Shown here: one piece after another, positions 53,261 to 64,000 of the stretch
How the letters are laid out: every line of letters starts with the position of its first letter
How positions within the stretch are numbered: position 1 is the stretch's first letter
Assembly (NCBI RefSeq): GCF_006265225.1
Contig: NZ_VDCS01000007.1
Span: forward strand, 124,001-188,000
Direction of reading: 5' to 3'
Origin: Allotamlana fucoidanivorans
GTDB taxonomy: Bacteria > Bacteroidota > Bacteroidia > Flavobacteriales > Flavobacteriaceae
DNA length: 64,000 nucleotides
Position numbers and translations under genes: made by a program
Notes under the pieces: model-generated
The model's input: only the letters and a program-made list of their open reading frames with translations
The model's database searches: none
Told to the model about the DNA's origin: nothing

Positions 53261-54187
53261 CTACTCGCTTTCATTTAGCCAATCAAAATGCTTATCGATA
53301 ATAACTTGTTTATTTTCTTTTACATAGTTGATTAAAGATTTAGCTATAGTTGACATATTCTTGGAACTTAACCAAATCAAATTCCAATTAGTAACAATGG
53401 GCAATCCCTTCACTGGGATAATTTGCAAATCGCCAATGGTAAGCGCATTTTTAATACCAATAAGAGGCATGATTGAATAGCCTAAACCAGAAATAACAGC
53501 TTGTTTTAAGGCCTCATTTGAGGTAAGCTCCATTTTTTTATAGGTTGAAATTTTCTTAGAGTCTATAAACTTTTCCATAGCTAATCTAGTTGCTGAACCT
53601 TGTTCTCTGTATATCAAAGGAAGTTTTTGGAATTCAGACTTTGACAAGTATTTGCCTTTATGCTGGTACTCTTTACCCCCTACCATATAAAGTTCATTAG
53701 GCATAAGTTGAATTCTATTAATTTTTAACTTTTTAGGGATTGTGGAAACCATAGCAAAATCAACTTCATTATTCTCAAGAGCTTTAATTACGGAAGCCTT
53801 ATTAGTTACATCCATAACAAGGTCAATACCTCGGTGTTGATTTATAAAATCAGATATAAAATAAGGCATAACGTATTTTGCCGTAGAAACAATGGCAATT
53901 TTTAATTTACCTGCTAACTCACCCTGATAAGACAATGCTTTATAATCAATAGCCTTAACCTCATCCATAATTTTTTGAGTAGCTTGGGCTACTTCCTCAC
54001 CAAACTCGGTGATATAAATACGCCTCCCTACAACTTCAAAAAGTGGTATTTTAAATTGATCTTGAAAGTTTTTTAACTGAATGGAAACTGCTGGCTGTGT
54101 TAAATACAAAGCTTCTGATGCCTTTGTTACGCTTTGTAATTCGGCTATTTTTAAAAATACTTCTAGCTGGTGCAATGTATAATTCAT
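53261..54187 (-). CDS. LysR-family regulator of the divergent SbtA cluster
   Basis: A 308-residue LysR-type regulator: N-terminal winged helix (about 1-60, LEVFLKIAELQSVTKASEAL, then LTQPAVSIQLKNFQDQF) and a C-terminal periplasmic-binding-like effector domain (about 90-295). Its resemblance to the CbbR/CmpR group, which controls carbon fixation and bicarbonate uptake, is inferred from the start FLKIAELQSVTKASEALYLTQ region and from context, not measured. It is divergent from the small membrane protein and sbtA, sharing an 83-base control region with an inverted repeat. Autoregulation and control of the cluster are expected for this arrangement. Confidence 0.92.
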   Translation of the reverse strand: MNYTLHQLEVFLKIAELQSVTKASEALYLTQPAVSIQLKNFQDQFKIPLFEVVGRRIYITEFGEEVAQATQKIMDEVKAIDYKALSYQGELAGKLKIAIVSTAKYVMPYFISDFINQHRGIDLVMDVTNKASVIKALENNEVDFAMVSTIPKKLKINRIQLMPNELYMVGGKEYQHKGKYLSKSEFQKLPLIYREQGSATRLAMEKFIDSKKISTYKKMELTSNEALKQAVISGLGYSIMPLIGIKNALTIGDLQIIPVKGLPIVTNWNLIWLSSKNMSTIAKSLINYVKENKQVIIDKHFDWLNESE

Positions 54188-54236
54188 AATTATTTTTTAT
54201 GTATTTCATAATAAATATAAATAAAAATTTATGAAA
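54183..54236. promoter_or_regulatory. Candidate LysR operator between lysR and the sbtA cluster
   Basis: TTTCATAA (54204-54211) and its exact complement TTATGAAA (54229-54236) are 17 bases apart. A further TTCATAAT copy lies at 54183-54190 at the lysR start codon. Dyads in the gap between a LysR gene and its divergent target are the usual binding sites. Confidence 0.45.
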
Positions 54237-54270
54237 AATATATCTAAACTTTGCATCAAAATTTAAAAAC

Positions 54271-54480
54271 ATGAAGAAAAGACTATTTAACCTCCTCATT
54301 AAATTCCACAACAAAATTGTACAGATTAATGATATTATTATAACTGCTATGTTTTTGTTTTTTGTAAGTCTATCGTTGAAAAACAACGGCTTATTTACGC
54401 AAGAACTGACTTTGTGTGGTTTGATTGTATTTCTAGCTGTCACCAACAAAAACCTAAATATGTTAACCAAAACCAAATAA
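54271..54480 (+). CDS. Small two-helix membrane protein in the SbtA cluster
   Basis: I do not recognise this 69-residue protein. A basic N-terminus (MKKRLFNLLIKFHNKIVQ) is followed by two hydrophobic segments (about 21-36 and 44-60), suggesting a small inner-membrane hairpin. It is the first gene after the divergent LysR promoter region and lies 9 bases before sbtA, so it should be co-expressed with it. It may be an accessory or regulatory subunit of the transporter, similar in logic to other small membrane proteins that modulate carriers, but this is inference from position only. Confidence 0.65.
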   Translation: MKKRLFNLLIKFHNKIVQINDIIITAMFLFFVSLSLKNNGLFTQELTLCGLIVFLAVTNKNLNMLTKTK

Positions 54481-54489
54481 TATAACTAC

Positions 54490-55455
54490 ATGGATTTACA
54501 TTTACTAATTGACAACCTAACCAACCCTGCATTACTTTTCTTTTTTTTAGGAATTATTGCGGTTCAATTAAAGAGTGATCTACAAATACCTGAAAACTCA
54601 TCAAAATTCATCTCTTTGTACTTACTTCTCGCCATTGGTTTTAAAGGCGGACAGGAATTATCTCATAGCACATTTAGCTTAGAAATACTTTGGGCTTTAA
54701 TTTTCGGCATCCTATTAGCTATATCTGTACCGATTTATACTTATTACATCTTGCGTAAAAAATTTAGTGTAGAAAATGCCGGAGCCATAGCTGCATCATA
54801 CGGATCTGTAAGCGCCGTCACTTTTGTAACAGCCATATCCTATCTTGAAATTATGCAAATTCCATTTAGCGGCCACATGGTTGCTGTAATGGCGCTTATG
54901 GAGGCTCCTTCTATCATGGTTGGACTCTTACTTATCATGATTTCAAAGGGAGGCAAAAAGAAATCAGGCATACCCATGTCAACCGTTTTACGTCACGCAC
55001 TTTTCAATGGAAGTGTATTATTAATAATAGGAAGCCTTATAATTGGGTTTCTTGCTAGCGATGCTCAAGCTGAAGGTATTAAACCATTCACCACAGATAT
55101 TTTTAAAGGATTCCTTGCCGTATTCCTATTAGACATGGGAATTACCAGTGGAAGAAAACTCTCAGATTTTATAAAGAAAGGTTGGTTTGCTCTAATCTTT
55201 GCAATTTTAATTCCAATCCTCAACGGTTGCTTGGTATCTATTATTACGGCAGGCTTTGTCACTGGAATAGGCAACAGATTATTATTCGCAATCCTAGCCG
55301 CCAGTGCTTCCTATATTGCCGTACCTGCTGCCATGAAAATTGCTGTTCCAAAGGCTAGTCCGAGTTTATATATTCCAATGGCTCTTGCTATTACCTTTCC
55401 ATTCAATATCACACTGGGCATGCCCTTGTACTTATGCATAATTCAAAACTTTTAA
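54490..55455 (+). CDS. sbtA: Sodium-dependent bicarbonate transporter, SbtA family
   Basis: A 321-residue permease with about ten transmembrane helices in two inverted halves. I recognise the SbtA (formerly DUF897) family from NPALLFFFLGIIAVQLKSDL (12-31), LAIGFKGGQEL, AAS-YGSVSAVTF (AASYGSVSAVTFV, about 99-111), the second-half repeat AILAASASYIAVPAAMKIAVP (in two parts, about 269-289) and the end ITFPFNITLGMPLY. SbtA imports HCO3- with Na+ in cyanobacteria. In a heterotroph it would feed anaplerotic carboxylases, consistent with the Na+ gradient made by the NQR pump. It lies between two small unknown genes in one operon. Confidence 0.9.
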   Translation: MDLHLLIDNLTNPALLFFFLGIIAVQLKSDLQIPENSSKFISLYLLLAIGFKGGQELSHSTFSLEILWALIFGILLAISVPIYTYYILRKKFSVENAGAIAASYGSVSAVTFVTAISYLEIMQIPFSGHMVAVMALMEAPSIMVGLLLIMISKGGKKKSGIPMSTVLRHALFNGSVLLIIGSLIIGFLASDAQAEGIKPFTTDIFKGFLAVFLLDMGITSGRKLSDFIKKGWFALIFAILIPILNGCLVSIITAGFVTGIGNRLLFAILAASASYIAVPAAMKIAVPKASPSLYIPMALAITFPFNITLGMPLYLCIIQNF

Positions 55456-55796: not shown

Positions 55797-55824
55797 TTGA
55801 ATCACATTTGTATTTGTAAAATAG

Positions 55825-55860
55825 GTCCAACAATTTCAAAATTGTTGGACTTTTCTTTGC
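55825..55860 (+). terminator. Terminator after the sbtA cluster
   Basis: GTCCAACAATTT and AAATTGTTGGAC form a perfect 12-bp stem with a 2-base loop followed by TTTTCTTT. Confidence 0.85.
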
Positions 55861-56006: not shown

Positions 56007-56549
56007 CTAAAACCTAAAATTTAAACCTATGTTTAGAGCAGCTGAATTATAGTTGTCCTCTGCTATTGATGTATACGATAGTACTAGTGCTAGCTTCTCT
56101 TTTAACCGATACGCCATTGATGGACGCATATAAAATCCGCCATTGCTATCATTAAAAAAACCACCGTCATTATCTCCAATATAATTTGCATTTAAAGCAT
56201 ACCCCAGATCAATTCCTGCGTAAATAGATTTGGAAATATTAAAATTGGAAGCTACTGCTAGTGGCATAAAAACATCTGGAATTGAGCTAAACCATCCTTT
56301 TGACCCATCTCCATTACTGCCTTCTCCTAAAAAAGTAACAACACCTGTTGACGCACCTAAATTAACAACATCTGATAATGACCATAAGTAACAAACATGT
56401 CCCTGAAGGGTATACGAAAAAAGCTCCTTTGAATCTGCTAATGTAGGCCCTACACTAATTTCCACCCTAAAACCTTTTTGAGCATTTGCAACACAACAAA
56501 AAAAACAAATAGCAATTACCATTAAGTAAATTGATATTGCTTTTATCAT
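56007..56549 (-). CDS. Small outer-membrane beta-barrel protein
   Basis: A 180-residue exported protein with signal peptide ending CVANAQ (about 1-23). The mature part alternates polar and hydrophobic residues in about eight strands and ends with AALNIGLNFRF, the aromatic C-terminus used by outer-membrane barrels. Strands such as FRVEISVGPTLAD and SIYAGIDLGYALNANYIG support an eight-stranded OmpA-like porin-type fold. No peptidoglycan-binding domain follows. It is the last of five leftward genes and lies 3 bases after the lipocalin-like lipoprotein gene. Its role in that operon is unknown; it might move or bind a hydrophobic product. Confidence 0.8.
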   Translation of the reverse strand: MIKAISIYLMVIAICFFCCVANAQKGFRVEISVGPTLADSKELFSYTLQGHVCYLWSLSDVVNLGASTGVVTFLGEGSNGDGSKGWFSSIPDVFMPLAVASNFNISKSIYAGIDLGYALNANYIGDNDGGFFNDSNGGFYMRPSMAYRLKEKLALVLSYTSIAEDNYNSAALNIGLNFRF

Positions 56550-56552
56550 TGT

Positions 56553-57026
56553 TTACAGTTTAATATATTCTTTATAAAAGTAAGACGACGCGTCATCACC
56601 GCAATAAAAAATTGGATTATACTGCCCAACTTTAACGGAATTTTTGCTGACTTTAAAATAAGTAGCCTCCTCTTCCTCCTGTCCTTCATATTTCACAAAT
56701 AAAGCACCATCCATAATTTTCCATGTCCCTTTTTCCAAGACATCTTCTGTACATTTATCATCGATATACTCATAAAAATACGTTTCAACCCAAGTGCCAT
56801 CGGCGTTTATAGTCAACCGCCCCTTTTGTTCACAGGATGTATAGTTTTCAACATCTTGGTCTTCACCAGAACAAACTATGACAAACCTTACGGGCTTCCA
56901 AACACCAACAAATTGACTCTCTATATTTTGCTGTGGGGTTTCTTTTTCATCGTCATTTGAAGAACATGATGAAGCAAAAAACAAAAAAAATACAGCTACA
57001 TAAACTATTAAACTTTGTGTTTTCAT
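56553..57026 (-). CDS. Lipocalin-like lipoprotein
   Basis: A 157-residue lipoprotein with a clear signal (FASSC, Cys21) and an acidic serine-rich linker (SSNDDEKE). The body has the Bacteroidota lipocalin-like layout: FVGVWKPVRF (about 39-48), an RLTINADGTWVETYFYEY strand pair (about 69-86), EKGTWKIMDGALFVKYEG and a terminal YKEYIKL. Four cysteines (in VCSGE, SCEQK, KCTED and FYCGDD) could form disulphides. Such domains bind small hydrophobic molecules in some families, but most bacterial members are uncharacterised. It shares the operon with an outer-membrane barrel (3 bases downstream) and lies 67 bases after the fatty acid hydroxylase gene. Confidence 0.82.
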   Translation of the reverse strand: MKTQSLIVYVAVFFLFFASSCSSNDDEKETPQQNIESQFVGVWKPVRFVIVCSGEDQDVENYTSCEQKGRLTINADGTWVETYFYEYIDDKCTEDVLEKGTWKIMDGALFVKYEGQEEEEATYFKVSKNSVKVGQYNPIFYCGDDASSYFYKEYIKL

Positions 57027-57093
57027 GACTGTTTGAATTAAATTAATATATCCTATTTGATGTCACTACGCTAAAAATTTGCATTTTAAAAAT

Positions 57094-57822
57094 TCAATCT
57101 AATTTATATTTATAAGTACCCATTAAGCGATCCCAAAATGTAAAATACAACCCGAAATTATACTTTGAATTCCTATGGTGAACATCATGATCTAATGGCG
57201 TATTTTGGAACTTAAACAATTTAAGTTGTTTTATATCATATCCTAAATGCACAAAAGTATCATAAAAAATCATCCAAGTAATAAACACCACTAAAGCCCA
57301 ATTATGCCATGGTACTGTAAAAATAATTATTGGAATAATACCCATAGTTAAAATCGATTCTAAAGGGTGAAACGCAAAAGCACCCCACGTTGATGGGTTT
57401 TTAAATTTATGGTGTAATAAATGTGTGTACTTAAAAATTATTTTATGGTGCATGAGCCTATGAACCCAATAGGAATATGTATCATGTAACACCACCATAA
57501 GTAGAATACTAACCACAAAATAAACCAATCCATATTCATTGATATCCGCATAGTTTCTTGTATAACCATTTTTTAACCAATACACAAATAGCCAAATTCC
57601 TGAACTATAAATACAAAAAGTAACCAAAGAATATTTTATTTCTTGAAAGATTTGCTTCCTGTTGGGATGTGCCTTTTGAATTTTAAGCGATTGATACTCT
57701 TCTTTTTTTATAATGTACAGCCAAAAATACGGCAATCCAGCAACTACCATGTATCTAGCAACTAATATTACCATCAACAGAAACCATAATTTAAACACCG
57801 ATAACTCTAACAACGTTTCCAT
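57094..57822 (-). CDS. Membrane fatty acid hydroxylase / sterol desaturase family enzyme
   Basis: A 242-residue integral membrane di-iron enzyme. The histidine clusters of the family are all there: HDTYSYWVHRLMHH (113-126), HLLHH (134-138), His152 and HDVHH (212-216). Helices lie at about 8-37, 63-85, 98-115 and 160-195. The family hydroxylates or desaturates lipids, sterols or carotenoids using O2 and an electron donor; bacterial members often modify fatty acyl chains. Here the gene lies 14 bases after a radical SAM enzyme, an unusual partnership of an O2-dependent and an iron-sulphur enzyme. Its substrate is unknown; a lipid or lipidated product of the same operon is a reasonable guess. Confidence 0.9.
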   Translation of the reverse strand: METLLELSVFKLWFLLMVILVARYMVVAGLPYFWLYIIKKEEYQSLKIQKAHPNRKQIFQEIKYSLVTFCIYSSGIWLFVYWLKNGYTRNYADINEYGLVYFVVSILLMVVLHDTYSYWVHRLMHHKIIFKYTHLLHHKFKNPSTWGAFAFHPLESILTMGIIPIIIFTVPWHNWALVVFITWMIFYDTFVHLGYDIKQLKLFKFQNTPLDHDVHHRNSKYNFGLYFTFWDRLMGTYKYKLD

Positions 57823-57836
57823 AATACATTACTTGA

Positions 57837-59066
57837 TTAATAGATTGAACATCCTTTTTTTGACAAATTAGCTAAGGCTAGATTAAAATCCTTACTTAAA
57901 ATATTCCCTGAATTAGTATGACAAAAATTGCAGGCATTTAAATTTCCTTTTGCGTCAATATAAACACTCCTGTTTCCACCTGCAAAACACCCTTGTCTTC
58001 GTTGATAATACCCATGATAACTAATTATAGGGAAATCTAGAAAGTCATTAGAATAATTCATTTTAACAAAGAAGGATTCTAAGATTTTAAGATTATCATC
58101 TGATAGTTTTACATCTCTACCTTCAAAGTGTCCAACTGGTTTTGGCTCTAAATACTGTACAAAATGCACCCCAATGTTTTTAGCCAGCAACATATACTTC
58201 ATCAAATTTTCTTCACTAACAAAGTCATTGGTTATACATACAGAAAAGGCTACAACCATATTATTTGCAATAGCATTTTTGGCACCTTCTAGCGCCCAAT
58301 GATAAGCATGCTTAAACCCTCTAAAACTGTTATGCATTTCCTCATCAAAATGATCTAAGCTTATGAATATTCCAGTTAAACCAGCTTTTTTCAATTGTTT
58401 TGCCTTGCTAAAAGTAAGTCGATACCCCGATGTATTAATCCAAATATTTGAATTCTTATTGGCCTTGTTCAATAGGTTAATTAGTAAATTAATTTTTAGC
58501 AAAGGTTCACCTCCTGTTAAATGAATCTGGCCTGTCCCCATATTTTGTAATCTAGAAATCACCTTCAACAAATCTTCTTCATCTAGTTGATCTTTCTGGT
58601 TTAGCGTATCCCATGTATAACAATGATCACATTGTAGGGCACATTTATGGGTTATGGCCAAGTGCACATGGTTAAATCTTAATCCTGCACCCTTTATTGG
58701 TTTAAAATAATTTAATTCAGAAGTGATAAAACGACGGTAATTGTCATCAAAATATCCAGGCGTATATAAGCCAATATAGTACTTGCCGTCTACCTTAACC
58801 ATTTTCTTTAACTTAAAATTACCGAGAAACTTTTTTCTCAACTGAATAAGGTATCTAAGTCCTAAATACCAGTTTAAAGGACTCTTGTATGCTTTTAACA
58901 AGATACCGAAAAGCGAACATCTAATGACAAACAACCACAAGGTTTTCTGTAACCCAGATATGGTTTTACATTGAGCGCTATGATTTTTATAACTTACATT
59001 CTTAAATGTAGTTGACTCCATCATAAACGTTTGTTTACTTACAGAAATTGTGGTTACTTCATTCAT
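57837..59066 (-). CDS. Radical SAM protein with SPASM-like C-terminus
   Basis: A 409-residue enzyme. The radical SAM cluster motif is CALQCDHC (Cys142, Cys146, Cys149) in HLAITHKCALQCDHCY, followed by HLTGGEPLL (the GGE motif). A barrel-like core continues to about 345. The C-terminal region has Cys360, Cys379, Cys382 and Cys406, a spacing that fits a reduced SPASM auxiliary cluster as found in peptide-modifying and some lipid or sugar-modifying radical SAM enzymes. An unusual N-terminal extension of about 130 residues has no motif I know, with a hydrophobic stretch at about 42-58. The start overlaps the upstream unknown gene by 8 bases. No short precursor peptide is evident beside it. Confidence 0.9.
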   Translation of the reverse strand: MNEVTTISVSKQTFMMESTTFKNVSYKNHSAQCKTISGLQKTLWLFVIRCSLFGILLKAYKSPLNWYLGLRYLIQLRKKFLGNFKLKKMVKVDGKYYIGLYTPGYFDDNYRRFITSELNYFKPIKGAGLRFNHVHLAITHKCALQCDHCYTWDTLNQKDQLDEEDLLKVISRLQNMGTGQIHLTGGEPLLKINLLINLLNKANKNSNIWINTSGYRLTFSKAKQLKKAGLTGIFISLDHFDEEMHNSFRGFKHAYHWALEGAKNAIANNMVVAFSVCITNDFVSEENLMKYMLLAKNIGVHFVQYLEPKPVGHFEGRDVKLSDDNLKILESFFVKMNYSNDFLDFPIISYHGYYQRRQGCFAGGNRSVYIDAKGNLNACNFCHTNSGNILSKDFNLALANLSKKGCSIY

Positions 59067-60855
59067 GATACGCCACTTTTTTTGAATTAAAATTCACAAT
59101 ATCAAAATAGTATTGTTCTGAATACTTGGTAAAAACATTATCCTTTCTAAATTCTTTCAATCGTTCAAAATCTGGAACACCTTTATAATCCCGTATATAA
59201 TTATAATAGCCTCTACTTAGTAAAAACAAGGATTCCTTAGCTTCCTTATTATGTCTATGGGTTTGAAATGAAACCGTAACCTCATCGCCAATATTAGGTT
59301 GTACCAAATAATTTGCGTCTTTATATTTTAAAAGTTCTGTAATGTCCTTACCTTTTTGATTAATAGCCGAGTTAGGCTTTAAATATTCTGAAATTAACCT
59401 CTCGTTTTCCGAATAATCTATTGCTACATAGTCTACTTCCCAGAACATAAATCCTGTTTCTAATTTAATTTGAATAGTTTCTTTATAAACATCATCCAGT
59501 GGTATTGACACAACAATATCTCTAGTTGCCATTGGTCCTACAGTATTGATATTTTGTACCAATTGCCACCCTTTATCTGTTTTTAGATAAACTGAAAGGG
59601 GAATATTTTGGGCTTTTACCCAATTTTCTATAGATACCTTAGAAACTTCTTGTTGTCTTTTTTGAAACGTATTGTAGTATGAACCAAACTGCTCATTAAA
59701 CTTCCCGTACATATAATCTAACCAAACAGAATTTTTGGCTGTTACATATAACTTGGCGTTTTTACAATGGCTTGGTTTTTCAAAATCAAAAACCACTTGT
59801 CTAGTACTATTTTGGTTATTTAAAGCTGTATTAAAGGCATAAAAATCATTATCCTTATGCAATGCAGGCTGTATCTGTTCATATCCATCATCCATTGTAA
59901 CTCGTTTAGGCGCTATCAAATTCTTAAAAGTATGAGGTTTACCTTGATGGTCTATCAAGACTTCTATATCCTCGTTATGCGTAAACCGAATCAATTGTAC
60001 AACATCCGTATATTGCACTTCCTTTAGATGGTTGGCTATTTTTATATTATACTCCCCGTTGTCACCTAGAATATTAGGAAGCGCCAGGTAATCATCTCGT
60101 TGCATGTTTGAAGTAATGGTTCCAGGGTAAAGCTCTCCAGTAAAATAATAGCCTTCATTATGCTTTACATAAACAAAAGGACAAGAGCTTTTAAGCGCAG
60201 CCACCAACAAGGTTACAAAGGCAATAGTACCAAATGTACCTGCCAATACATTTGCTATTGACCGCCCCGTATTCTTATCATTAATAGAAACCCGTTCTAC
60301 ATCTGAAAAAGGGATACTTACATTTTGGTAGTCATTGAAGTTTGAACTATTGTTCAAATAAAAATGCACCTCATTAAGTGGTGTTTGCTTTGATGGTTTA
60401 TAGCGATGAACTCGCTTAGTATCTCGAGTAGCAGTATATGTTTGAACAGAATCTTTTACCTCATCTGTGCTTTCGCTACGATTCTTATTCGATTTATTTT
60501 TTAATCCTTTATTGGGATTTTTTTTTGAAACCTTTTTTTCAAACTGATGTTTTGATGAAACAGGAGCCAAAACACCACTAATTGTTTGCTCATCTTCATT
60601 AACTACAATCTCATTTAAATGCCATTCTAAATCCTTTTGATGTAGAATAGCATACTTATCTTGCTCATTAAAATTCTTGATAGTGCCTGAAATAGTTTCT
60701 TTAGTGGTTGCAACATCCTTAACAGTGTAATAGGAACATGATATAGAAAGATTTATAGTAGCGAATGAAAAAAGTACTGCTATTTCTCTTGTATATTTTT
60801 TACATAATTTAAGAGGAACCCAACCATACATACAATTGTTATTTTTTATATTCAT
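59059..60855 (-). CDS. Large envelope protein of unknown function (SCPFVYV motif)
   Basis: I do not recognise a function. The 598-residue product (an ATG eight codons in is an alternative start) begins with a hydrophobic signal-like segment (about 24-40) ending at Cys40, a weak lipobox. A beta-rich region is followed by a Lys/Ser-rich linker (about 101-130), then a predicted transmembrane helix (about 200-221) directly before SCPFVYV (224-230) and YYFTGELYPGTI (236-247). The rest is probably an extracytoplasmic beta domain with EGFMFWEVDY-like strands. I believe SCPF(V/L)Y proteins occur elsewhere in Bacteroidota without known role. It heads the five-gene operon and overlaps the radical SAM gene by 8 bases, so the two are likely partners. 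Confidence 0.8.
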   Translation of the reverse strand: MNIKNNNCMYGWVPLKLCKKYTREIAVLFSFATINLSISCSYYTVKDVATTKETISGTIKNFNEQDKYAILHQKDLEWHLNEIVVNEDEQTISGVLAPVSSKHQFEKKVSKKNPNKGLKNKSNKNRSESTDEVKDSVQTYTATRDTKRVHRYKPSKQTPLNEVHFYLNNSSNFNDYQNVSIPFSDVERVSINDKNTGRSIANVLAGTFGTIAFVTLLVAALKSSCPFVYVKHNEGYYFTGELYPGTITSNMQRDDYLALPNILGDNGEYNIKIANHLKEVQYTDVVQLIRFTHNEDIEVLIDHQGKPHTFKNLIAPKRVTMDDGYEQIQPALHKDNDFYAFNTALNNQNSTRQVVFDFEKPSHCKNAKLYVTAKNSVWLDYMYGKFNEQFGSYYNTFQKRQQEVSKVSIENWVKAQNIPLSVYLKTDKGWQLVQNINTVGPMATRDIVVSIPLDDVYKETIQIKLETGFMFWEVDYVAIDYSENERLISEYLKPNSAINQKGKDITELLKYKDANYLVQPNIGDEVTVSFQTHRHNKEAKESLFLLSRGYYNYIRDYKGVPDFERLKEFRKDNVFTKYSEQYYFDIVNFNSKKVAYHE

Positions 60856-61010: not shown

Positions 61011-61033
61011 AATCTGAAAATACTTTTCAGATT
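61011..61033. repeat. 10-bp perfect inverted repeat, hybrid regulator to operon gap
   Basis: AATCTGAAAA, spacer TAC, TTTTCAGATT. It lacks a proper T-run on the minus strand, so it is a poor intrinsic terminator and could instead be a protein-binding dyad. Confidence 0.4.
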
Positions 61034-61207: not shown

Positions 61208-64000
61208 CTATTCGTTTAGTTCACTTGGAGCTATTCCAAACTCTTTTTTGAAAGCACGACTAAACCATGAAGGATCGTTAAAACCGACTTCATAAGCGAT
61301 TTCTGATATACTTTTATTTGAAGTTTGAATGAGGGCTTTAGCCTTATTTAGTCTGATAGATCGAATGAATACTGCCGTAGAACGGTTGGTGGTTGCCTTG
61401 ATTTTTCTATATAACTGCGATTCGCTTAAATGTAATTTTTCAGCGAGCTGAACCGATCCAAACCCAGAGTCATCTAACGCTTCATTTACAAACTTAACAA
61501 CCGCTTTAATAAATACCGTTTGAGGCTCTTTATCTCTACGTGCAATAAAAGTCTTAAAATCCTCCTGACTGAATTTTTCAATCATGGTTTTTCTAAGGCT
61601 TGTCAATTGATTTATTCTTGCAAATAATTCGTTTTTATTAAATGGTTTTATTAAATAGGCGTCTGCACCATGTATTAACCCCGTTATGCGGTCTTTATCA
61701 CTGGCCCTCGCTGTTAATAGTATTATAGGAATATGATTGGTCATTAATTCCGATTTCAGTGTATTACAAACCTCAAAACCGTTCTTTTTTGGCATCATCA
61801 CATCACTTATTATAATATCGGGAATATATGTCTTTGCTAATTCTATGCCCTTTTCCCCGTCTTCTGCTAGAAGGATTTTATAATTAGCTTCAAGACAAGT
61901 CTTTAAATAATAAGCAACGTCTTTGTTATCTTCAATAATTAAGGCTATAGATGATGTTTCATCTAAGTCGGTATGAAAACATTGCTCCACATCCGTTTCA
62001 TCACGGTGCACAGTTTTGGGAGGGTCTAAGTGATCCTCCAACTTCGATTTAATTATCGCTGCACGATTGGTTATAGGTAGTGTTATAGAAAACTCACTGC
62101 CTTTTTGCCTCTCACTTTTTACATCAATAGTGCCGCCCAAAAGTTTTGTAAGTTCTTTTGTTAAGGCTAACCCTATCCCTGTTCCTTTAAACTGTGGTGT
62201 TGCCAAGTTTTTTGCCTGATAAAATTTTTCAAAAACATTGGGAAGATCTTCTCTAGCTATACCAATACCATTATCGATAATTTTAAGCACCAAATTATTA
62301 TTAAACGTTTTTATATGACAAATTATCTTTCCCCGTTCCTGGGTAAACTTAATAGCATTAATAATTAGGTTTTTAACTATGGTAGAAAGTTTTTCAGCGT
62401 CTGTATCCATATACAAAGTATCCACTTCTGAATAGAACACATAATCTATATGCTTTTCTTTAGCCATAGATTCAAAACTTTCAAAAAGGTATTTAACGTA
62501 ATTTACTATTTCAACCTGACTCCAATTAACCTCTAGTTCAGCACTTTCAAGCTTGGTTAGATCAAGCATATCATTTACCATTTTAAGCAAGCTGGCACTA
62601 TTTTCTTTTATAAGCTTTAACGATTTTATAGTTTTAGGGTTTTTAGAATTCTCCTGATTTTCTAAGGTTTCTATCATGCCTTGTATAACCGTTATAGGAG
62701 TTCTAAACTCATGAGTAATATTGGTATACAAAGAATTTTTAAGTTCATCTATTTCCTTTAATTTTTTCGATTCTGCAAGGGCCAATTTTCTGGACAACTG
62801 AAAATTATACAACCAGTAGGATAACACTAAAAGCAACATAATATAACCTATAATGGCAATGGTTGTAGACCACCAAGGCGGATTTACTTTAATCTTTAAT
62901 TGGAGAGGGGCTTGTTTCCATGCTATTCCTCTTGAAAAACCATTGACTTCTAAATTATATTCCCCTCGTGGTAAGTTTAAAAACTGAATTCTGTTTTCAC
63001 TAAGAAAGCTCCACTTGCTATCAAGTGGCTTAAGTCGATAAGCATACTGGATGTTTTTATCCATCCTGAAATCTAAAGCAGAAAATTTCAAATAGAAAGG
63101 AAACTGATCGCTTTGAATAGTTATGTTCTCAGCAGTTTCTATAGAAGATTTTATAACCTCTTTTTGATTTAAAGGGGTTATGTTTTGATTCTTTATTTGT
63201 AATTGTGAAAAATAAAGTTGCTGGGGCGCATCTAAGACGTGTATTTCATTGGGATTAAAAAAAGTAAGACCCTCAACACCGCCCATATAAACCATACCAT
63301 CCGCATCACGAAACCGTGCATGGGTATCAAATTCTCTTCCCTGTATATTATCTAAAACTGAAAAATGAGAAAATTGCTGTGTAGACGTATTGAACCTTAC
63401 CAAACCATCATTGGTGCCCATCCAAAGATTACCTTGCAAATCATCTTGCAGGCTATAAATTAACGTATTGGGAAACTGATCCTGCTTTGTCCAAGTGGTA
63501 TATGTTTTATCATCATTTAACAAACTCAACCCATTTCTTGTACCCAGCCAAATTCGATTACTGCTATCTACCGAAATATCATTAACAGCATTATGCGCTA
63601 GTGTTTTATCTATTCTATCTTCCTTTATAAAATTCTCAAATTCAATCTGAATATAATTAATCCCTTTTAAAGTAATTTTAGAAACACCATTTTGTGTGCC
63701 TACCCAAATATTGCCGGCCTTGTCAACCTCTAAGCAATTGGTTTCGTTATTTACTAGTGAATTAGAGCGCCCTTCTTTATGTACATATCTTGTTATTTGA
63801 TAGTTGCCATCAGAAGCATATGCCATTTTAAATATACCATGTTCATGCGTAGCCCCCCAAAGGTTATTATTGACATCAAGCACTAAATCTTTTAAAAAAT
63901 TAGAGTTTATAGAATTAATATTTTTAGGGTTGTGGTAGAAATTTTTAAAAACAAGGTGCTCAGGATCAAAATTATTTAAACCTAGTAGACTAAGCCCTCT
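61208..64000 (-). CDS. Hybrid two-component system regulator (HTCS), 5' end beyond the window
   Basis: The frame stays open through the right edge; residues such as GLNNFDPEHLVF precede the first possible internal start, so at least 930 residues are encoded here and the gene continues outside. In order: two-component-regulator propeller repeats (NIWVGTQNGVSKI, NRIWLGTRNGLSLL, NLWMGTNDGLVRF), a Y_Y_Y-type domain, one transmembrane helix (IAIIGYIMLLLVLSYWLY), a kinase (phosphoacceptor His in NITHEFRTPITVI, ATPase DNGIGI), a receiver domain (phosphoacceptor Asp in IISDVMMPKKNG) and an AraC-type DNA-binding domain (HLSESQLYRKIK, IAYEVGFNDPSWFSRAFKKEF). HTCS proteins sense glycans in the periplasm and activate sus-type loci. 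Its target could lie in the unseen DNA to the right or be the operon to the left. Confidence 0.95.
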   Translation of the reverse strand, partial: RGLSLLGLNNFDPEHLVFKNFYHNPKNINSINSNFLKDLVLDVNNNLWGATHEHGIFKMAYASDGNYQITRYVHKEGRSNSLVNNETNCLEVDKAGNIWVGTQNGVSKITLKGINYIQIEFENFIKEDRIDKTLAHNAVNDISVDSSNRIWLGTRNGLSLLNDDKTYTTWTKQDQFPNTLIYSLQDDLQGNLWMGTNDGLVRFNTSTQQFSHFSVLDNIQGREFDTHARFRDADGMVYMGGVEGLTFFNPNEIHVLDAPQQLYFSQLQIKNQNITPLNQKEVIKSSIETAENITIQSDQFPFYLKFSALDFRMDKNIQYAYRLKPLDSKWSFLSENRIQFLNLPRGEYNLEVNGFSRGIAWKQAPLQLKIKVNPPWWSTTIAIIGYIMLLLVLSYWLYNFQLSRKLALAESKKLKEIDELKNSLYTNITHEFRTPITVIQGMIETLENQENSKNPKTIKSLKLIKENSASLLKMVNDMLDLTKLESAELEVNWSQVEIVNYVKYLFESFESMAKEKHIDYVFYSEVDTLYMDTDAEKLSTIVKNLIINAIKFTQERGKIICHIKTFNNNLVLKIIDNGIGIAREDLPNVFEKFYQAKNLATPQFKGTGIGLALTKELTKLLGGTIDVKSERQKGSEFSITLPITNRAAIIKSKLEDHLDPPKTVHRDETDVEQCFHTDLDETSSIALIIEDNKDVAYYLKTCLEANYKILLAEDGEKGIELAKTYIPDIIISDVMMPKKNGFEVCNTLKSELMTNHIPIILLTARASDKDRITGLIHGADAYLIKPFNKNELFARINQLTSLRKTMIEKFSQEDFKTFIARRDKEPQTVFIKAVVKFVNEALDDSGFGSVQLAEKLHLSESQLYRKIKATTNRSTAVFIRSIRLNKAKALIQTSNKSISEIAYEVGFNDPSWFSRAFKKEFGIAPSELNE

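Follow-up and report, generated by a model that had tools for sequence, protein, structure and literature searches.

A conserved gene pair for a radical SAM enzyme and a lipoprotein-like protein in Bacteroidota, with acyl-chain enzymes among its neighbors

Radical S-adenosylmethionine (SAM) enzymes perform chemistry that few other enzymes manage. Anaerobic sulfatase maturases and the maturases of ribosomally synthesized and post-translationally modified peptides (RiPPs) act on polypeptides, and to our knowledge few radical SAM enzymes act on membrane lipids. One that acts on lipid chains is the tetraether lipid synthase GDGT-MAS (Tes), which, according to the available part of its description (PMC9433317), has lipid pockets, differs in its auxiliary domains and works on an archaeal substrate. 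A locus of Allotamlana fucoidanivorans, situated in a 64,000-nucleotide stretch of DNA (hereafter the window, positions 124001-188000 of contig NZ_VDCS01000007.1, from a genome of 4.0 Mb), encodes a radical SAM enzyme, termed rSAM, whose gene overlaps that of a 598-residue lipoprotein-like protein, termed P598. The P598-rSAM pair is patchy across genomes yet hardly ever separated, and it suggests a so far undescribed way of modifying a membrane lipid or lipoprotein. The two proteins are best explained as a single functional module at the membrane. Our tentative preference, held with a little less than even confidence, is that an acyl lipid is the substrate of a membrane-associated radical SAM enzyme partnered by P598.

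The initial annotation described five leftward genes with small gaps at 56007-60855 and read them as one envelope operon. The arrangement itself is borne out by the list of open reading frames (ORFs) of the window:

59059-60855, minus strand: P598, 598 residues; lipoprotein-like, with a Cys at the lipobox place (C40), a second hydrophobic helix at about 200-221, Cys225-Pro226 and a predicted jelly roll at about 310-486
57837-59066, minus strand: rSAM, radical SAM enzyme, 409 residues; 8-base overlap with the P598 gene; Pfam Radical_SAM, E 7e-25
57094-57822, minus strand: membrane hydroxylase, termed FAH, 242 residues; 14-base gap after rSAM; Pfam FA_hydroxylase, E 9e-29; di-iron-type histidine boxes
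56553-57026, minus strand: lipocalin-like lipoprotein, 157 residues; 67-base gap after FAH; Pfam Lipocalin_4, E 5e-11
56007-56549, minus strand: small outer-membrane beta-barrel, 180 residues; 3-base gap after the lipocalin-like gene; Pfam OMP_b-brl, E 9e-9

What is conserved elsewhere is the P598-rSAM pair and not the set of five genes. Among 199 genomes of the same family, rSAM is found in 12 (threshold E 1e-30); P598 adjoins it in all 12, and the hydroxylase in 8. A sample of 395 Bacteroidota genomes (threshold E 1e-40) yielded rSAM in 10, two of which were already in the family sample, and P598 is adjacent in nine; the sole exception, G235, carries a distant relative. We call the pair patchy because of these low frequencies. 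A scan of named genomes with an rSAM alignment, of which the best 80 of 100 relatives were retained, produced a set of loci that overlaps the family sample (7 apparently shared). P598 lies within 2.3 kb of rSAM, measured start to start and with copies cut by a contig end included, in 76 of the 76 named loci where it could be assessed. Three loci (L091, L121 and L153) are not counted, as their contigs end before the P598 start, and L136 has no rSAM frame in its ORF list though P598 is present. P598 is upstream and in the same direction in 72 of the 76, and within these 72 the genes overlap in 35 and are no more than 30 bases apart in 62. P598 is downstream of rSAM in three of the other four loci: immediately so in L139, separated from it by one gene in L147 and on the opposite strand in L144. 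In L151 it is upstream, again on the opposite strand. The initial annotation had taken the association to be accidental if relatives of rSAM usually occurred without this protein, named there after its SCPFVYV sequence; the reverse was found, and only distant relatives lack P598. Distant forms of P598 do exist without an adjoining rSAM, and in the genomes of the 11 such loci examined the best rSAM match is 2.2e-30.

All named carriers, again among the best 80 of 100, are Bacteroidota by title, except for one Cloacimonadota assembly and one record of an "uncultured bacterium." Cultivated carriers include Maribacter arenosus, Flavobacterium saliperosum and Hymenobacter roseosalivarius. Because the pair is small and is carried by cultivated strains, the question of its function is experimentally accessible.

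The pair is present in two copies in Lutibacter oceani (L124 and L125, on one contig) and in assembly SS_bin_6 (L104 and L119). In genome G061, the rSAM gene (L023, 9737-10956) is broken by a stop codon, and the adjacent P598 gene is intact. This rSAM is left out of alignment A2, and alignments A4 and A5 leave out frames of odd length, broken or truncated copies that include rSAM of L128 and P598 of L158, L109 and L122.

The CxxxCxxC motif of rSAM (C142, C146 and C149) is kept in 78 of 78 aligned sequences, all of which match Pfam Radical_SAM; this CX3CX2C motif and domain together place the enzyme in the radical SAM superfamily. The initial annotation had further labeled the enzyme SPASM, a class whose motif, in the accessible part of one account (PMC6231123), comprises seven cysteines (CX9-15GX4C-gap-CX2CX5CX3C-gap-C). 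This label had to be dropped. Four cysteines are conserved after the barrel, in the arrangement C360-x13-G-x4-C379-x2-C382 plus C406 (present in 77, 78, 78 and 77 of the 78 sequences, respectively), and Pfam SPASM is matched at E 0.01 in only 8 of 78 members. With four such cysteines rather than seven, rSAM is, by sequence and by its fold match to SkfB, of the Twitch type, a truncated SPASM with one auxiliary cluster site, at which a cluster is predicted. Among divergent P598-linked copies, Met stands in place of C382 in L073 and L074, and L071 has a gap at C406.

The AlphaFold2 model of rSAM (mean predicted local distance difference test score, pLDDT, of 92) finds its best fold matches in SkfB (Z 26.0), BlsE (23.0), SuiB (22.8) and the viperins (about 22), with GDGT-MAS at a lower 18.4. 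SkfB, like rSAM, has one auxiliary cluster site, and it superimposes on model residues 105-409 with a root-mean-square deviation of 2.9 over 287 residues and 20% identity. However, as far as the available part of its description goes (PMC6231123), its auxiliary site has CXC, whereas rSAM has C-x13-G-x4-C-x2-C-x23-C. SkfB also has a small precursor, and before its barrel the element order of a RiPP recognition element (RRE), neither of which is seen for rSAM. GDGT-MAS differs in being aligned only over model residues 130-388, with 16% identity.

Two helices precede the rSAM barrel in the model (38-59 and 63-81), with net charges of +3 and +4, and the first is hydrophobic (mean 1.22). The elements of residues 35-121 run helix, helix, strand, strand, helix. 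This order, by which alone the N-terminal part was compared, differs from that of the RRE, whose three strands and three helices are arranged as the same partly available account describes for SkfB (PMC6231123). A search for a small precursor peptide among 648 ORFs of 20-100 residues within 1.5 kb gave no ORF cluster present in at least three loci.

By sequence, the best known match of rSAM is MoaA, the GTP 3',8-cyclase (TIGR02666, 84 bits; PDB 1tv7, E 3.5e-11), although the score is far under the cut-off of 284.05 bits. No NCBIfam cut-off, whether of MoaA, NirJ, PqqE or others, was reached among the matches listed (best 25 of 84). The short name of family TIGR04133, rSAM_w_lipo, says radical SAM plus lipoprotein; rSAM scores 63.6 bits on it, against a cut-off of 425. 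No paper on the P598-rSAM pair was found in the open-licence literature among the matches listed, judged by title and the start of the abstract. The pair is apparently undescribed, although rSAM_w_lipo already exists as a family name, and by the features tested the enzyme is a Twitch-type protein outside the NCBIfam families listed.

A further cysteine, C277, lies at the end of strand beta5 in the model. It is Cys in all 78 aligned sequences and in all 18 further P598-linked sequences, which come partly from the same genomes as alignment A5, and it lines up with Val in MoaA. When 30 relatives of falling similarity were compared, Cys occupied this position in 9 of 9 with P598 near, versus 2 of the 21 that lack P598 within 1.5 kb. 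The latter two (L186 and L187; wider stretches L207 and L208) mean that C277 is not an exclusive mark of partnership with P598.

In both wider stretches, which are from one genus (L207, 8871-11045; L208, 8030-10381), a gene resembling beta-ketoacyl-acyl carrier protein synthase III (KAS III) directly follows the rSAM gene with C277. No P598 is found within about 9 kb of either rSAM, and these genomes are outside the 52 with a P598-type match.

Position 277 is Val in G235 and G447, both of which have a GMC oxidoreductase gene a few genes behind rSAM. In L209 (9152-12643) and L083 (9137-12612), a related rSAM has one or two small genes behind it and then a GMC oxidoreductase, which is weakly MftG-like in L209 (50 of 400 bits) and has Fer4 matches in L083. 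GMC genes also lie close to rSAM in L139 and L140, the latter on the same contig as L024. Together with MoaA being the best known sequence match, the GMC genes of L139, L140, L083 and L209 would fit a biosynthetic role of the mycofactocin or MoaA kind, in which rSAM supplies a GMC-type oxidoreductase or some other enzyme with a small redox cofactor, a modified nucleotide or a modified sugar; P598 would then be a sensor or receptor. This explanation is unlikely, because GMC genes occur in few loci, the cut-offs of the MoaA and mycofactocin models are not reached, and the ORF search gave no conserved small peptide gene.

P598 of the window matches no Pfam family and no NCBIfam model above cut-off. 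Among its 74 aligned relatives, Pfam PH_8 is matched in two (best E 3.5e-4) and DUF6922 in one. A Cys stands at the lipobox place in 72 of the 74, as it does in all 11 relatives that have no rSAM beside them. With its signal sequence and this cysteine, P598 is predicted to be a bacterial lipoprotein and to be lipidated, although the segment ahead of C40 reaches a mean Kyte-Doolittle hydrophobicity of 1.6 in just 54 of 74 sequences, and residues -3 to -1 are variable. A second hydrophobic segment is present in 74 of 74 (mean best 19-residue score 2.5). It ends about four residues before Cys225-Pro226, which is invariant in the 74.

The model of P598 has a mean pLDDT of 86, with lower values around 200-220. 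Its residues from about 310 to 486 resemble a jelly roll of the CBM35 or Eph-receptor type (VIA-align, Z up to 11.6); this predicted fold is a common one and gives no pointer to function. Foldseek matches are weak (best E 7e-5, TM score by query length below 0.2).

Members of the conserved P598-type family are 550-600 residues long. The SCPF region also occurs within proteins of about 1150 residues, and many matches fall in open frames of about 1100-1200 residues. One example (L084, 8463-11906) is a protein of 1147 residues that has the SCPF region plus TPR, FG-GAP and UnbV_ASPIC domains.

Strict adjacency and gene overlap raise the possibility that P598 is itself the substrate of rSAM and is modified ahead of its export, for instance close to Cys225 or Trp378, after which the matured lipoprotein would do envelope work involving the lipid enzymes. 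This role for P598 also agrees with the nearest fold being that of a RiPP maturase and with the lack, in the ORF search, of a conserved small ORF as an alternative peptide substrate. The residue closest to rSAM-specific invariance is W378, which is Trp in 74 of 74 rSAM-linked sequences versus 1 of 11 relatives without a neighboring rSAM, a contrast set of distant sequences in which relatedness may account for the difference. However, Leu replaces W378 in the rSAM-linked L071, and the residue was set aside as a candidate substrate site. Moreover, Cys225-Pro226, N275, E279 and G549 are equally invariant in the 11 relatives without rSAM, and the N-terminal order of rSAM is not the RRE order given for SkfB in the part of the account available (PMC6231123). 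Finally, the rSAM copies of L207 and L208 carry C277 with a KAS-like gene and have no P598 nearby, which favors acyl chemistry over P598 as substrate. We place modification of P598 by rSAM close behind the lipid explanation, as less likely than not.

The hydroxylase encoded behind rSAM scores 101 bits on PF04116 (cut-off 31), and its histidine boxes, HxxxxxxxHRxxHH, HxxHH and HDxHH, are invariant in 8 of 8 aligned sequences, which places it in the fatty acid hydroxylase superfamily. The ornithine lipid hydroxylase OlsE is a weak NCBIfam match (24 bits, cut-off 475). A hydroxylase gene lies within 2 kb downstream of rSAM in 24 of 73 named loci. The initial annotation had counted it against a real association if rSAM usually occurred without the hydroxylase. 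This is the case in the remaining 49 loci, yet in the family sample the close FAH subfamily is found in 8 of 199 genomes, every one of them an rSAM carrier; its bound of E 1e-120 was chosen post hoc, in view of the distance to the next-best match (3.6e-73), which comes from a genome that lacks rSAM. In the four rSAM-carrying family genomes that lack FAH beside the pair, no FAH match was found anywhere at E 1e-25. The window's genome has three FA_hydroxylase genes altogether. A quickly built tree of 78 rSAM proteins requires 7 changes in hydroxylase presence (at least 3 by starred branches) versus 19.8 in shuffles, a clustering that near-copies alone can yield; four rows are uncounted, and L131, where the hydroxylase is upstream on the other strand, was scored as lacking it. 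The seven changes suggest that the hydroxylase was gained or lost several times.

Relatives of the lipocalin-like protein, which also scores just over the Pfam NlpE cut-off (22.3 versus 22 bits), were found in L087 and L088 only, and none of the barrel in other loci (phmmer, E 1e-5). Other barrels and small lipoproteins are present near the pair elsewhere. The last two genes are probably local additions, judging by these searches. Thus, the five-gene operon proposed initially is retained in its first two genes and rejected as a unit, because the lipocalin and barrel are barely conserved and the hydroxylase recurs in only a minority of named loci and in 8 of 12 in the family. The association of the first two genes is far above chance, that of the hydroxylase is clearly above chance, and the last two genes show little conservation. 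That all five genes are an accidental run, as the unconserved last two genes and the absence of the hydroxylase behind rSAM in two thirds of loci might be taken to indicate, is very improbable. The presence of P598 in every assessable named locus refutes chance for the first two genes, and the confinement of the hydroxylase subfamily to rSAM genomes, as well as its clustering on the rSAM tree (with the reservation about near-copies), speaks against chance for the third.

To characterize the wider neighborhood, 150 random proteins from 235 neighbors (up to two genes of at least 120 residues on each side, within 1.5 kb) were scanned with Pfam, as were, for control, 150 of the 338 genes that these loci contain at distances above 3 kb; proteins longer than 1200 residues were excluded. 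The most frequent families near the pair are FA_hydroxylase (9), ACP_syn_III_C, indicative of KAS III (6), Por_Secre_tail (5), OMP_b-brl (4), OMP_b-brl_2 (3) and adh_short (3). FA_hydroxylase, KAS III and the outer-membrane barrels are absent from the 25 far families listed, the smallest count of which is 2. KAS III proteins of one subfamily, with Cys-His-Asn retained, are encoded in 6 of 79 loci. The gene order is rSAM, KAS III, FAH in L118 and L127, and the KAS III and FAH genes are side by side in L131. A search of the phylum sample for this subfamily (A6) at E 1e-45 matched 0 of 395 genomes, which included no known positive, so that the result is uninformative.

In the window's genome, the cluster extends beyond the window edge with genes for a histidine kinase, a 141-residue protein, an epimerase-type reductase, an FA_desaturase, a short-chain dehydrogenase/reductase (SDR), a second epimerase-type reductase, an Rce1-like membrane protein, a DUF6134 protein and an AraC-type regulator. 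The SDR has its best NCBIfam score on mycolate reductase (142.5 versus 380 bits), and the second epimerase-type reductase scores on the HpnA, SdmB and OleD models, all under cut-off. L087, L089 and L015 also contain parts of this cluster, and its AraC gene is strongly matched in six other loci (E 2e-169 to 5e-86). The acyl enzymes near the pair, namely FAH and KAS III, and in the window's genome a desaturase, the SDR and two OleD/HpnA-like reductases, support an acyl or lipid context. The initial proposal that the operon makes, modifies and carries outward a lipid-like product gains from the leading position of FA_hydroxylase and KAS III and from the extended cluster; its making and outer-membrane transport steps are conjectural.

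The window's genome has no squalene-hopene cyclase match, which disfavors a hopanoid substrate. A hopanoid or sterol product is unlikely for the same reason, though HpnA and SdmB are the models on which the epimerase-type genes score highest, below cut-off.

Two single loci have other gene sets near the pair. In L161 (818-7906), the genes ahead of the pair encode a sulfotransferase, a KAS III of canonical type, a protein that matches AMP-binding weakly and under the cut-off, a metallo-hydrolase-like protein (by eye) and an epimerase-type protein. In L153 (2021-3845), epimerase-type and Lactamase_B genes lie behind rSAM.

From the observed pairing, coupling, membrane features and acyl-enzyme neighbors, we infer a substrate and every chemical step of the following scheme, in which rSAM acts on a lipid. 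The enzyme would be held on the inner face of the membrane by its two N-terminal helices. Its 5'-deoxyadenosyl radical would abstract hydrogen from a substrate that is an acyl compound or derived from one, C277 would serve as hydrogen donor or as substrate contact near SAM, and the auxiliary cluster might accept or donate an electron. P598 would be a dedicated partner that keeps the product at the membrane or passes it on. In Flavobacteriaceae, the hydroxylase may often add oxygen to the same product, and the variable small barrels and lipoproteins may serve in product placement. More broadly, the pair may be a two-gene system scattered over the phylum and made up of a Twitch radical SAM enzyme bound to the membrane and a bitopic lipoprotein dedicated to it. 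Together they would perform a C-H reaction, with C277 as a catalytic residue of the enzyme, and the substrate would be an acyl lipid or a lipoprotein that carries lipid; hydroxylase or KAS III modules would be plugged into the system by lineage. Bacteroidota would then have a new route for modifying envelope lipids, a proposal that we offer as plausible but somewhat short of an even chance.

Several observations weigh against a lipid substrate. The constant partner of rSAM is P598, and no lipid enzyme is constant: two thirds of loci (49 of 73) have no hydroxylase within 2 kb behind rSAM, and KAS III of the retained type occurs in no more than its 6 loci. FA_desaturase_2 was counted twice among the far genes, so lipid genes are also present outside the near set. 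In the model comparison, a peptide-modifying enzyme, SkfB, is the top match and outscores the lipid-acting GDGT-MAS. L207 and L208 have KAS-like genes without the Asn-Cys-Gly motif of the others. Finally, the second helix of P598 is followed by fewer flanking Lys and Arg residues than precede it in 42 of 74 sequences, by more in 7 and by equally many in 25. These charges leave the predicted topology undecided and do not support a cytoplasmic C-terminal domain, which means that the enzyme and P598 may sit on opposite sides of the membrane. Nonetheless, a radical SAM enzyme that is inseparable from a lipoprotein-like protein, with recurrent acyl-chain enzymes beside it, provides a concrete place to seek a new membrane component or lipoprotein modification.

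Two other features flank the five genes:

61208-64000, minus strand: hybrid two-component sensor/regulator, named from its sequence; upstream of P598 and running past the window end
55823-55852, both strands: terminator-like stem behind the last gene, with 13 pairs on the plus strand and 11 on the minus strand

The sensor/regulator is 1341 residues long in L026. Its BLAST relatives lie close to the pair in L015 and L025, and another was seen by eye in L088. The stem is a consensus match only, in a region with a total of 7 such stems versus 2.7 in shuffles. The gap upstream of P598 contains a perfect inverted repeat with 10-base arms (61011-61033). No repeat like it was found upstream of P598 in seven relatives, three of which have inverted repeats with arms of at least eight bases. 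On the other side of the locus (53261-55455), a LysR regulator gene, whose product has its highest score on CbbR (180.8 of 450 bits), is transcribed divergently from a gene of type Sbt_1, which belongs to the Na+-dependent bicarbonate transporter superfamily.

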